From NCBI GenBank assembly GCA_035601835.1, contig DATNNM010000016.1:62001-126000 (forward strand): a stretch of DNA of 64,000 bases, read 5' to 3'. The stretch's first letter is position 1. Each line of letters starts with the position of its first letter. Both the position numbers and the translations under genes were made by a program. This DNA is from Candidatus Tumulicola sp. (GTDB lineage Bacteria > Vulcanimicrobiota > Vulcanimicrobiia > Eremiobacterales > Eremiobacteraceae). Shown here in pieces: positions 11,571 to 50,903 of the stretch. Below the pieces are notes generated by a model that saw only the letters and a list, made by a program, of their open reading frames with translations, did not search any database and had not been told where the DNA came from.

Positions 11571-11665
11571 TTGTAGTGCCAGGTTTGTAGTGCCGGGGCT
11601 TTAGCCCCGGTTCTTGTGCTGCCGCGTCTGTAATGCTTGTTGTAGTGCCGGGGCTTGAGCCCCGG
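11571..11665 (+). repeat. Cluster of REP copies left of the RAYT gene
   Basis: It contains a partial tail copy (TTGTAGTGCCAGG, 11571-11583), a full REP with tail TGTAGTG and palindrome CCGGGGCTTTAGCCCCGG (11586-11610), and a second full copy (11641-11665) whose centre is TTGA instead of TTTA. Both full copies point the same way. The GTAG in the tail is the tetranucleotide typical of RAYT-recognised REPs. The last copy ends 8 bp before the RAYT stop codon. Confidence 0.93.
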
Positions 11666-11672
11666 TATATCC

Positions 11673-12128
11673 CTAATACCACGGGTCGAGGATCCCAGAA
11701 TACGGGTAATCGCGAAAGTCTACAACAAGCCCGGCGCGAATCGGATTCTCGAGCGTGTACCGAATGGTCGCGTCGCTCTTCTCATATTCCCGCACGATGT
11801 GGTCGTGATAGCCGCGTTGCCATAAGAATGAGTGACCCGACATTCTGCACCTATGCAAGATTGTGGCCTTGAGGGTGCCGACGATATCGCTGAGAGGGCG
11901 TGAATCGCTTTGCAGCCGGGCCACCATGTGGATGTGGTCGGGCATGACGCAATATGCGTGGAGGCCGTACCACTCGCGTTCACGGTACCTCAAGATATGG
12001 TCGCAGGCGATGATCGCGGCCGCGGGCGTGCGGAAGATCGGCTGCCGGTTGCTGACGCGAAACGTTATAAAGTACGAACCCGGAGTCGTATAATCGAAGC
12101 CCTTCAGCCGAGGACTGCCGTCAGCCAT
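11673..12128 (-). CDS. REP-associated tyrosine transposase (RAYT, IS200-like Y1)
   Basis: About 151 residues from ATG at 12128 (MADGSPRLKG); an in-frame ATG at 12146 is an alternative. The fold is the Y1 transposase family (PF01797). GSYFITFRVSNRQPIF forms the first strand, YCVMPDHIHMV carries the HUH metal-binding histidines, and FLWQRGYHDHIVRE carries the region of the nucleophilic tyrosine. These enzymes nick and join single-stranded DNA at REP palindromes. RAYTs are usually single-copy domesticated genes rather than selfish insertion sequences. It is flanked by inverted REP copies (11586-11665 and 12173-12197), the expected gene-plus-substrate layout, which strongly supports the call. Confidence 0.93.
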   Translation of the reverse strand: MADGSPRLKGFDYTTPGSYFITFRVSNRQPIFRTPAAAIIACDHILRYREREWYGLHAYCVMPDHIHMVARLQSDSRPLSDIVGTLKATILHRCRMSGHSFLWQRGYHDHIVREYEKSDATIRYTLENPIRAGLVVDFRDYPYSGILDPWY

Positions 12129-12172
12129 GGTTCGTTCTTCAAGCAACGCGGTATCGTTGTCAAGGGGTTGAA

Positions 12173-12197
12173 CCGGGGCTAAAGCCCCGGCACTACA
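12173..12197 (-). repeat. REP right of the RAYT gene, inverted relative to the left copies
   Basis: CCGGGGCTAAAGCCCCGG plus CACTACA, the reverse complement of the left-hand copies. The RAYT is thus enclosed between outward TGTAGTG tails, as in REPIN/RAYT loci. It sits 44 bp upstream of the RAYT start, within its probable promoter region. Confidence 0.93.
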
Positions 12198-13429: not shown

Positions 13430-13454
13430 CCGGGGCTAAAGCCCCGGCACTACA
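13430..13454 (-). repeat. REP copy between TonB receptor and lipoprotein gene
   Basis: A perfect CCGGGGCTAAAGCCCCGG palindrome with a CACTACA tail. About 32 bp to its left, CCGGGGCTTCGACC (13398-13411) looks like a decayed half copy. Both lie in the 228-bp gap, on the lipoprotein-promoter side of the receptor terminator. Confidence 0.93.
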
Positions 13455-18279: not shown

Positions 18280-18304
18280 CCGGGGCTAAAGCCCCGGCAC
18301 TACA
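18280..18304 (-). repeat. REP copy between sucC and sucD
   Basis: CCGGGGCTAAAGCCCCGG with a CACTACA tail. It fills most of the 51-bp sucC-sucD gap, just before the sucD ribosome site. In the transcript it would form a hairpin between two subunits needed at 1:1, so it may stabilise the upstream part or modulate coupling. Confidence 0.93.
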
Positions 18305-29515: not shown

Positions 29516-29595
29516 CCGGGGCTAAAGCCCCGGCACTACATCCGAGCTTCGCTCGGAACGCTACATTTTTTCCGAGCTTCGCTCGGAACGCTGCA
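29516..29595 (-). repeat. Array of three REPs between serine hydrolase and M3 peptidase
   Basis: One copy of CCGGGGCTAAAGCCCCGG-CACTACA (29516-29540) is followed at once by TCCGAGC-TTC-GCTCGGAACGCTACA (29541-29565). A second copy follows (29571-29595), ending GCTGCA. The last two have 7-bp arms and share the tail TGTAGCG. They fill almost the whole gap between the hydrolase start and the peptidase stop. Confidence 0.92.
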
Positions 29596-31695: not shown

Positions 31696-31720
31696 CCGGG
31701 GCTAAAGCCCCGGCACTACA
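31696..31720 (-). repeat. REP copy between gctB and the M3 peptidase
   Basis: A perfect CCGGGGCTAAAGCCCCGG palindrome with a CACTACA tail, 19 bp after the gctB stop and in the promoter region of the M3 peptidase. Confidence 0.93.
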
Positions 31721-44852: not shown

Positions 44853-44877
44853 TGTAGTGCCGGGGCTTTAGCCCCGG
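44853..44877 (+). repeat. REP copy between the LptD-like gene and the epimerase
   Basis: TGTAGTG-CCGGGGCTTTAGCCCCGG in the forward orientation. A bare TGTAGTG (44839-44845) just upstream is a tail-only remnant. The REP ends 21 bp before the epimerase ATG. Confidence 0.93.
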
Positions 44878-47529: not shown

Positions 47530-47960
47530 GGGGCGCGTCTGAAGGTCCGGACCAAGGCGGATGTCGGCCATTCGAGCGCGCGGATGAGCAGGAGCCCGGC
47601 GCGGTTCATGAGGTTCGGCTTGACGTAGCCTTCGTCTAAGTCCCATATCGGGATAAACCAGCGGAACGTTCGAGGAAATCGCTCCGACCAGCGCTGCATC
47701 CGCGCTTGGTCAAAGCCGCGCTGCCGCAGAGCGGCGAGCACGGCGGCATCGTCCGCCGAGGCTTTGACGATCGTCTCGAACTCGGCCGTCGTGACGTTCA
47801 AGCGCTTCATCAAGCTCGCGTCGACCGGCGAGTGGCCGAGCAGGTAGATCCCAAGCTGTCCTTGTTGTTGCATCCGAGCTTTGTCGATCATGCGCGGCAG
47901 CCACACGATCCCGTCGACTGCCTCGCTCCAGCGGCGCGGACAGTGTGCGGCTACGCTCAC
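47526..47960 (-). CDS. DUF5069 family protein
   Basis: About 144 residues from GTG 47960 (VSVAAHCPRRWSEAVDGI), whose GTGA overlaps the rmlD stop. VWLPRMIDKARMQQQGQLGIYLLGHSPVDASLMKRLNV in outline matches DUF5069, a small uncharacterised family. No catalytic motif is known. The open frame upstream of the GTG is a shadow of rmlD. It is the last gene of murJ-punA-deoA-rmlD-DUF5069; its role with those genes is unknown. Confidence 0.75.
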   Translation of the reverse strand: MSVAAHCPRRWSEAVDGIVWLPRMIDKARMQQQGQLGIYLLGHSPVDASLMKRLNVTTAEFETIVKASADDAAVLAALRQRGFDQARMQRWSERFPRTFRWFIPIWDLDEGYVKPNLMNRAGLLLIRALEWPTSALVRTFRRAP

Positions 47961-48826
47961 GCGATGTGTCCTTTCGCAAGCAGGTAGTCGTGCAGGCCGG
48001 CGCGCCACGGGCGCGCTGCAAGTCCCAGCGCGGCGAGTTTTTCGCTCGCGAGAACCGAGTAGGCCGGCCGCGGCGAGCGCGCCACGTGCTCCGCGCTCTT
48101 CACCGGGGTCGCGCGAAGCGACGAACCGCTCTCTTCGAAAATGGCATCCGCGAACTCCAGCCACGAGCACCCGCCTTCGTTCGCCAGGTGATACGTACCG
48201 GGCGCTGCGCGCAGTTCGATGAGCTCCACCAGCAGGCGGGCCGCGTCACGCGCGCTGGTCGGAGACATCACGATGTCGGAGACGACTCGTGGCCGCTTGC
48301 CTTCGCGCGCGAGTCGCAGCATCGTCTCCACAAAGTTGCCGCCTTTGCCGCTGCTCCCGGCCACGCCGAACACACTTGAGAGGCGCGCCACATAGTGAAG
48401 CGGGTTGGTCGCGGCGACCAGCGCTTCCCCCGCCGCCTTGGTGGCGCCATACACGCCAAGCGGGCGAGGCGCATCGCTTTCGACGTATGGCGTGCTCTTG
48501 ACGCCCTCGAACACGAAATCGGTGCTGATGTAGGCGATCGCGGCACCGCGCTCGCGCGCCGCGTTCGCGCATGCGAACGCGCCCGACGCGTTGACGCGCA
48601 CCGCGAGATCAGGGTGGTGCTCGCACTCGTCGGTGCGATGGAATGCGGCGGTATTCACGACGACGTCGCCTTCGCTCAGGCTCGCAAACGCACGCGCGAG
48701 GCTCTTCGGATCCGTGACGTCGCAGTCCGCGCGCGTGAGCGCGAGCACCGTCATGCGCGCGTCCTTTGCTGCGCCGACGATCTCGCTGCCGACCTGACCG
48801 TTGGCACCGATGACGGCGATCTTCAT
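47957..48826 (-). CDS. rmlD: dTDP-4-dehydrorhamnose reductase-like SDR
   Basis: A 289-residue reductase: KIAVIGANGQVGSEIV is the NAD(P) loop, VNTAAFHRTDECEHHPDLAVRVNA and YISTDFVFEG are RmlD motifs, and YGATKAAGE holds the catalytic Tyr and Lys. It would make dTDP-L-rhamnose, but no rmlA-C is adjacent, so it may act on another sugar nucleotide. Its start overlaps the pyrimidine phosphorylase stop by 4 nt. Confidence 0.85.
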   Translation of the reverse strand: MKIAVIGANGQVGSEIVGAAKDARMTVLALTRADCDVTDPKSLARAFASLSEGDVVVNTAAFHRTDECEHHPDLAVRVNASGAFACANAARERGAAIAYISTDFVFEGVKSTPYVESDAPRPLGVYGATKAAGEALVAATNPLHYVARLSSVFGVAGSSGKGGNFVETMLRLAREGKRPRVVSDIVMSPTSARDAARLLVELIELRAAPGTYHLANEGGCSWLEFADAIFEESGSSLRATPVKSAEHVARSPRPAYSVLASEKLAALGLAARPWRAGLHDYLLAKGHIA

Positions 48827-50073
48827 GACAATGCCCGAACCAGCTGCCGCGATGCCGGCGGATCGTCGCCGAGCGTCAGCGACGCCGCGAGCCGCTCGAG
48901 ATCGAGAAGAGCCGCTCCGGTTTCGAAGACGTCGATGACCGGCTCGCCGCGCTCGACCTTGTCACCCGGCCGCTTGCGCAATCGCAATCCGGTACGGCGC
49001 GCCTGTTCGATGGGCAAGCCTGCCTTGCCCGCCGCGACGAGCTCGCCCAGCGTTCGCGGGTCAATGCTTCGGACGTAGCCGCTGCTCGGCGCCGCGATGA
49101 AGCGCGCCGGCTTGAAGGCGCGGTCGAACTCGTCCAGACGTCCGCCCTGCGCCGCCGCCATCTCGGCGAACTTCCGAAGGCCGGAGACCGGGGCTAAAGC
49201 CCCGGCACTACATCCGGCACATTCGAGCATCGCGGCGGCGATCGCGTGCGCCACCGAGCGCAAACGCGGTGACCCGCCGCCGCTCAAAGCCGCAAGGGCT
49301 TCGTCAAGCTCCAGCGCATCGCCGACGGAGTCCGCAAGCGGCTCGTTCATGTCGGTCAAGACCACGCGCACGCGCTTGCCCAAGCGCTCGCCGACGTCGC
49401 GCATGACGCGGCCCAGCTCCTCCGCCTCCGCGGGCGTCTTCATGAACGCTCCAGCGCCGTGCTTCACGTCGAGCACGATGGCAGGCGCCCCGCCCGCGAT
49501 CTTCTTGGAGAGGATGGACGCGGCGATGAGCGGCACGCTCGCGATCGTCGCGGTGCGGTCGCGCAAGGCGTAGAACTTCTTGTCGGCCGGCGCGAGCGAG
49601 GCCGTGGCAGCCGCCACGGCGCAACCGACGCGCAGCACCTGTGACTTGAACTCCTCCAAGCCCAGGTCGACGCGCAATCCGGGAATGCACTCAAGTTTGT
49701 CGAGCGTGCCGCCGGTGTGGCCAAGCGCTCGGCCGGACAATTTCGCGACCTTCGCGCCCGCCTCGGCTGCCAGCGGCACCGCGACCAGCGTCACGGCGTC
49801 ACCGACACCGCCCGTCGAATGCTTGTCCACCACGGATGCGGCGCCCCACACAAGCGTATCGCCCGATGCCGCCATTGAGGCGGTGAGGTGCGCCGTCTCC
49901 GCAAGCGTCATGCCGGTCATGCAGACCGCCATCAACCAGGCGGCGACAGGAGCGTCATCGATCTCGCCGCGGGTGAAAGCGGAGACCAACGCTTCGATCT
50001 CCTCACGCGAGTGCTCTAGGCCCGCCCGTTTTTTTTCGATGAGCGAGCGCATAGCGGCCGCGGAGAGCGTCAC
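48823..50073 (-). CDS. deoA: Pyrimidine-nucleoside (thymidine) phosphorylase with in-frame REP
   Basis: A 416-residue enzyme that splits thymidine/uridine with phosphate to base and (deoxy)ribose-1-phosphate. SVVDKHSTGGVGDAVTL, KLSGRALGHTGGTLDKLE and DVKHGAGAFMKT are the family's signature motifs. Between AAAMLECAG and LRKFAEMAAAQGG, residues [11 protein letters not shown] are encoded by a REP (49188-49212); known homologues have about 25 variable residues here, so the repeat replaced part of a surface segment rather than the active site. The frame is intact. It overlaps its neighbours punA and rmlD by 4 nt at each end. Confidence 0.92.
   Translation of the reverse strand: MTLSAAAMRSLIEKKRAGLEHSREEIEALVSAFTRGEIDDAPVAAWLMAVCMTGMTLAETAHLTASMAASGDTLVWGAASVVDKHSTGGVGDAVTLVAVPLAAEAGAKVAKLSGRALGHTGGTLDKLECIPGLRVDLGLEEFKSQVLRVGCAVAAATASLAPADKKFYALRDRTATIASVPLIAASILSKKIAGGAPAIVLDVKHGAGAFMKTPAEAEELGRVMRDVGERLGKRVRVVLTDMNEPLADSVGDALELDEALAALSGGGSPRLRSVAHAIAAAMLECAGCSAGALAPVSGLRKFAEMAAAQGGRLDEFDRAFKPARFIAAPSSGYVRSIDPRTLGELVAAGKAGLPIEQARRTGLRLRKRPGDKVERGEPVIDVFETGAALLDLERLAASLTLGDDPPASRQLVRALS
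49188..49212 (-). repeat. REP copy inside the pyrimidine phosphorylase gene, in frame
   Basis: CCGGGGCTAAAGCCCCGG with the CACTACA tail, unaltered, within coding sequence. The complete palindrome plus tail reads CSAGALAPV with no stop, because this reading frame is one of those open through the element. Confidence 0.95.
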
Positions 50074-50903
50074 TGCGCCGATCGCTCCGCCAGATTTTCC
50101 ACGAGTGCCCGCACGCGCGGCACCGCTGCTTCAACCGCGCGCTGCACGGCCTCGTGCGTGAGAGCGGGCTCGCCGTGCGCGTGCGGCGACGCTTCGTTCG
50201 CGATGACGGAGAGGCCCAGCACGCGCATGGAGACGTGGCGTGCGACCAGCACTTCGGGCACGGTGGACATGCCGACCGCATCGGCCCCGAGCGTCGCCAG
50301 CATACGCAGCTCCGCGTCGGTCTCATACGCTGGACCCGACAACGCCGCGTAGACGCCGTCGTGCAGCTTGAGGCCCAGCTTCTTACCCAACTCGCGTACG
50401 ACCGTGCGCAGCTCTGCATCGTAGGCATCGCGCGTGGATGGAAAGCGCGGACCGAGCTTCGCTCCTGCTTTGCCCATCAGCGGACTATCGCCCATGAGAT
50501 TGAGATGATCTCCGATGATCATGATGTCGCCGGCGTCAAGCGCGGCGTTGATGCCTCCGGCAGCGTTGGTGACGACAAGGGTCTCGACGCCCAGGCGATG
50601 CAGTAGGTAGACGGGCAGCGCCACGTCGTCCATCGAGCGGCTTTCGTAGTAGTGAGCGCGGCCTTGCATCACCGCAGCGGGCGTGCCCTTGATCGTCCCC
50701 AACAGCAAGCGACCGGCATGGCCCTCCACTGAAGTGGAGACGAATCCCGGGATCTCTGAATATTCGAACACGCGCGGTTTCTCAACCGCGTCGGCCACTT
50801 TCGCAAGCCCCGAGCCTAAGATCAAACCCAGGCGCGGCCGCAGTTCGCTGCGCGCACGCACGTACTGCAGCGCGGCTTCGAGCCGGTCGACGAGATCGCT
50901 CAC
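50070..50903 (-). CDS. punA: Purine nucleoside phosphorylase (class I)
   Basis: A 277-residue trimer-type PNP from GTG 50903 (overlapping the murJ stop as GTGA). LGLILGSGLAKVADAV is the phosphate loop; GRAHYYESRSMDDVALPVYLLHRLGVETLVVTNAAGG and GPAYETDAELRMLATLGADAVGMSTVPEV in outline are the class I PNP motifs. It degrades inosine and guanosine (and deoxy forms). Together with deoA it forms a nucleoside salvage pair. Confidence 0.92.
   Translation of the reverse strand: MSDLVDRLEAALQYVRARSELRPRLGLILGSGLAKVADAVEKPRVFEYSEIPGFVSTSVEGHAGRLLLGTIKGTPAAVMQGRAHYYESRSMDDVALPVYLLHRLGVETLVVTNAAGGINAALDAGDIMIIGDHLNLMGDSPLMGKAGAKLGPRFPSTRDAYDAELRTVVRELGKKLGLKLHDGVYAALSGPAYETDAELRMLATLGADAVGMSTVPEVLVARHVSMRVLGLSVIANEASPHAHGEPALTHEAVQRAVEAAVPRVRALVENLAERSAQ

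Follow-up and report, generated by a model that had tools for sequence, protein, structure and literature searches.

An intact GTAG-type REP read in frame within a pyrimidine-nucleoside phosphorylase gene of Candidatus Tumulicola sp.

The deoA gene found in the analysed stretch of DNA (the window, 64,000 nucleotides) from the soil bacterium Candidatus Tumulicola sp. carries one of the genome's GTAG-type REPs, (T)GTAGTGCCGGGGCTTTAGCCCCGG, without a single mismatch; the element is translated without interruption as the nine residues CSAGALAPV. Very probably, the element landed in deoA recently and in frame, and is tolerated in a loop of a DeoA enzyme that is probably still active. The original prediction had described a perfect palindrome with a tail, read in frame between the conserved stretches AAAMLECAG and SGLRKFAEMAAAQGG; the element is real, the open reading frame around it is intact and the flanks are as claimed. 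Coordinates of all features are collected in Table 1.

Table 1. Genes and REP copies located in the window
Feature	Position	Strand	Basis and remarks
REP flanking RAYT gene	11587..11610	+	Pattern search
REP with 1 mismatch flanking RAYT gene	11642..11665	+	Pattern search
REP-associated tyrosine transposase (RAYT)	11673..12146	-	NF047646, 109.5 bits, cut-off 80
REP on the other side of RAYT gene, inverted	12173..12196	-	Pattern search
Intergenic REP	13430..13453	-	Pattern search
Intergenic REP	18280..18303	-	Pattern search
Intergenic REP	29516..29539	-	Pattern search
Intergenic REP	31696..31719	-	Pattern search
Intergenic REP between two same-strand genes	44854..44877	+	Pattern search
rmlD-like dTDP-4-dehydrorhamnose reductase, start overlaps deoA stop	47957..48826	-	TIGR01214 above cut-off, ORF list
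deoA/pdp-type pyrimidine-nucleoside (thymidine) phosphorylase, 416 aa, GTG start	48823..50073	-	Pfam, NCBIfam, fold
REP-coded stretch of deoA, codons 288-296, CSAGALAPV	49186..49212	-	ORF translation
REP element TGTAGTGCCGGGGCTTTAGCCCCGG in deoA	49188..49212	-	24/24 identical to 190-copy consensus; palindrome 49188-49205, GTAG head 49208-49211
Purine-nucleoside phosphorylase, upstream, stop overlaps deoA start, 5' end approximate	50070..50900	-	NF006054 above cut-off

The repeat family and its transposase gene

The deoA element comprises a GTAG head, two further bases and a perfect 18-nt palindrome, CCGGGGCTTTAGCCCCGG; the GTAGTG head extends it to position 49211 and is followed by a near-invariant T at 49212. 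Alignment of 120 copies revealed sharp edges, with (A/T)T before GTAG and A/T after CCGG and no clear conservation beyond, and GTAG stands at one end of the palindrome in nearly all of them. The outer 6-nt arms GCCGGA/TCCGGC, considered as part of the element, were rejected because the flanks vary among copies. Nine copies of the 20-mer GTAGTGCCGGGGCTTTAGCC (up to three mismatches) occur in the window against 0.00 expected from shuffles, eight of them intergenic and one inside a gene, deoA. In the genome, a draft of 18 contigs, 236 copies were counted at the same tolerance, 190 of them perfect, and the reversed control pattern gave none.

Only one Y1-type (Y1_Tnp) gene of this genome passes the search threshold. 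It encodes a RAYT with the HUH motif PDHIHMV and the motif YTLENPIRAGLV; its score above the NF047646 cut-off, the PDHIHM signature, the catalytic Tyr and YTLENPIRAGL place it in that family. REPs in both orientations lie on its two sides, and at 11573-11610 the head of the neighbouring REP is duplicated in tandem (GTTTGTAGTGCCAG GTTTGTAGTGCCGGGG). The GTAG head, the palindrome, the roughly 236 genomic copies and the REP-flanked cognate RAYT gene bear out the identification as a REP put forward originally. The length within 20-40 bp and the high copy number of dispersed elements, chiefly intergenic or near gene 3' ends, are likewise those of the GTAG class. The arrangement resembles RAYT/REP units, or REPtrons (PMC2817692, PMC8266576), in its single RAYT, inverted flanking REPs, GTAG head, GC-rich stem, high copy number and preference for gene 3' ends, but differs in that most copies are single units instead of inverted doublets and that the host lies outside the proteobacteria.

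Of 13 further genomes from the family, 12 contain no copy of the REP 24-mer, and the remaining one has 2-12 divergent copies. The REP expansion is thus almost private to this genome and therefore appears young, which suggests that the deoA copy is young as well. The association with the RAYT gene points to a recent spread driven by this putative transposase. In one genome of the same family, G006 (e.g. C93:6553-6576), about 12 related REPs carry altered stem bases (GTAGTGCCGCGGCTTTAGYCGCGG), some of the changes compensating one another, perhaps through co-evolution with that genome's own RAYT. A search for REP literature on Eremiobacterota returned nothing relevant.

The REP-coded segment of DeoA

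Family models, the predicted fold and the residues contacting phosphate and nucleoside identify DeoA as a phosphorylase. Its Pfam domains, Glycos_transf_3 and Glycos_trans_3N, score above cut-off, as does NF004490 (392 bits, cut-off 269), while TIGR02644 scores 396, just below its cut-off of 409, an effect that a missing helix might give. The family-invariant residues K84, H85, S86, R171, S186 and K190 are retained. The overlap of deoA with the genes on both sides suggests an arrangement as in an operon.

Comparison with relatives that lack the repeat, one of the checks originally suggested, was based on the segment from the Met of AAAML to the Phe of RKF. This segment contains 19 residues in the present DeoA, 28 in all five nearest relatives (about 55-60% identical; nearest named relative 58%), 31 in three further family members and 23-31 in nearly all others, so that the variable segment of homologues is longer, as had been proposed, and that of the present protein is the shortest of 109. 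Closer relatives were sought, and no second species of the genus was found. Among the roughly 109 homologues compared, no other DeoA has GALAP coding and none has a palindrome at this site; the same residues in a relative devoid of the palindrome, which would have spoken against the original prediction, were looked for in this set and not found. The copy in deoA is therefore that of an intragenic in-frame REP, lying in the coding sequence of a real gene whose relatives are free of it. The replacement of about 25 residues by 11, as first suggested, holds in its direction, that of shortening, and not in its sizes: nine REP-coded residues would now take the place of about 18 from the host, a short predicted helix among them, a net loss of nine. 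Loss of host residues may have preceded or followed the arrival of the REP, the nearest relative available for comparison being 58-60% identical.

Structure prediction, also among the checks suggested, yielded an AlphaFold2 model of DeoA with an intact fold (mean pLDDT 93.9), matching Bacillus PyNP (1brw) with a Z of 50.9 and an rmsd of 2.0 over 408 residues. The loop that connects helices 269-286 and 295-308 is made up of the REP residues, at a somewhat lower local confidence of 81. A relative without the REP (L062) displays an extra predicted helix, 298-306, at the REP site. In the models, the REP thus occupies the place of the relative's short helix and its linkers, and the remaining fold is like that of 1brw. 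With the reading frame, the catalytic residues and the predicted fold all preserved, the cell probably still produces an active enzyme.

In-frame copies across the genome and a proposed history of the deoA copy

Flanking sequence was read for 202 copies, among them every perfect one, and a copy was assigned to a gene on the basis of a simple codon model together with family models or clear homologues. Of the perfect copies, 14 fall within 13 genes, all in frame and without stops. The genes are deoA, cysS, pheT, mfd, ctaA, mutY and pbpC, those of a GT4 glycosyltransferase, an imuB-like polymerase, a UvrD/AddA-like helicase, an ETF-like protein and a phospholipase C-like phosphatase, and one for a lipoyl E2/2-oxoglutarate decarboxylase, which has two copies. 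Five copies are read as sense SAGALAP, seven as antisense GAKAPAL and two as PGLKPRHY, exactly the three of the six REP frames that are free of stops. Were frame and length random (1 in 6 per copy), 14 of 14 open, in-frame copies would arise with a chance of about 1e-11, and random placement would put about 167 of the 202 copies in ORFs (window coding fraction 0.83); the uniform frame and the deficit within genes are attributed to selection against damage. Weak read-through ORFs at L237, L188 and L196 and a stretch 5' of cmk at L153 were left out of the intragenic count. Among the copies read, no gene was found to be disrupted by its REP; at six candidate sites the coding frame differs between the two sides, and these proved to be boundaries between adjacent genes or weak antisense ORFs. 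The suggestion that REPs generate protein sequence is strengthened by these 14 cases.

In the history proposed here, a GTAG-class REP would have spread in the lineage aided by the one RAYT, as the association of the two suggests, and recently landed in deoA in the sole stop-free sense frame, within a variable connection between two helices. With its arrival, or through deletions around it, DeoA would have exchanged about 18 residues of the host, a nine-residue helix among them, for nine REP-coded residues in a loop. Insertion could occur anywhere, with survival only of in-frame copies in tolerant loops or linkers, and the same filter would account for the in-frame copies, at least 13 in number, in the 12 other genes.

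The element might instead merely look tolerated, deoA being dispensable and on its way to a pseudogene after a very recent insertion whose frame was luck (1 in 6). Pyrimidine salvage is often dispensable, the copy is perfect and hence young, and the helix of the relative has been lost. We consider this improbable, since the ORF is otherwise intact, its catalytic residues are kept, its start and stop overlap the neighbouring genes, all 14 intragenic copies are in frame, several of them in usually essential genes (cysS, pheT), and the copies read include no broken gene. A role as nucleic acid, in which the REP was kept as an mRNA hairpin, for gyrase or protein binding or for tuning the downstream rmlD gene and the peptide is incidental, would fit a hairpin that folds well both as DNA (z -5.6) and as RNA (z -2.1), and REPs are held to influence mRNA stability and to bind gyrase (PMC3733652). 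Such a role appears very unlikely: the intragenic copies are few and scattered over unrelated genes, and it would not by itself require all of them to be in frame. That the palindrome is native deoA coding sequence arisen by chance, and was never mobile, is hardly credible; the AL of the REP peptide does align with a conserved AL of the family, but the element is identical at 24 of 24 positions to a repeat of 190 copies, its residues occur in no homologue and the 24-mer is missing from 12 of 13 family relatives.

Known coding palindromes and the mode of integration

Recent, tolerated landing of a REP in deoA, the preferred reading, belongs to a rarely documented kind of event that is already known, since intragenic GTAG and CGTC REPs ("REP-decorated proteins") were described in several species in 2013 (PMC3733652); the present case is an unusually clear one. 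Those REPs also have GTAG heads, are read in frame in genes of known function, often for repair proteins and tRNA synthetases, and provide upstream genes with a TAG stop from their ends. Here, by contrast, the host is of another phylum (Eremiobacterota), every in-gene copy is perfect, and DeoA is shorter, with a helix lost, instead of longer; the sections of PMC3733652 consulted make no mention of net-shortening replacements. The classic case of in-frame palindromic insertion is that of the Rickettsia palindromic elements (PMC10969869), which likewise occupy in-frame positions in housekeeping genes that are unrelated to one another and show no evident inactivation. They differ in being about 150 bp long and adding long, conserved peptides, while the element described here has 25 bp, codes for 8-9 residues and is accompanied by a RAYT.

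The mode of REP spread has been described as poorly understood (PMC8266576). A plain insertion of 24-27 bp predicts a gain of 8-9 residues. The median net length change relative to homologues is +8 in PheT, +6 in Mfd, +5 in CtaA, +4.5 in GT4, 0 in CysS, -6 in ImuB and -9 in DeoA, and +2.5 in PbpC (two relatives); MutY (+7) and the helicase (-15.5) were not counted, their loops being too variable. Where it can be measured, in-gene copies rarely add 8-9 residues although they are perfect and hence young. It is conceivable, though unlikely, that REPs in this genome take the place of a comparable length of host sequence, for example through annealing of a single-stranded REP at a replication fork, and are not simply inserted. 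Coupling between REP arrival and loss of host sequence is only hinted at, since these loops are variable and the comparison is with distant relatives; comparison with an empty-site strain would address how REPs integrate. Fourteen natural insertions of the same 8-9 residues in 13 conserved genes, from one young repeat family, also allow one to ask where proteins tolerate foreign peptides and how selection filters REPs, and they caution annotators that "extragenic" palindromes may be coding.

Two dozen further copies supply the stop of a neighbouring gene, through the TAG of the GTAG head, as VVPGL-stop or from the opposite strand. The REP-derived C-terminal tail VVPGL-stop occurs at L014:1501-1524, L153, L163, L166, L189 and L201, and at L014 a partial and a full copy together yield NVVPGLGNVVPGL-stop. 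In the ETF-like gene (L173:1498-1588), the REP stands at the end of a tandem array, 3.7 copies of a 21-bp unit derived from the REP head (GTTTGTAGTGCCGGAGCCAAG), whose in-frame translation gives TLAPALQ repeats, a case of tandem growth of a coding REP. The two perfect antisense REPs of the E2/2-oxoglutarate decarboxylase gene (L028:1501-1617) lie 93 bp apart in the linker between the lipoyl and E3-binding domains. In the helicase ORF (L210, residues 520-540), the perfect in-frame REP, PGAKAPALH, has a decayed neighbour, AGAKAPAPQ, which may be an older coding REP.
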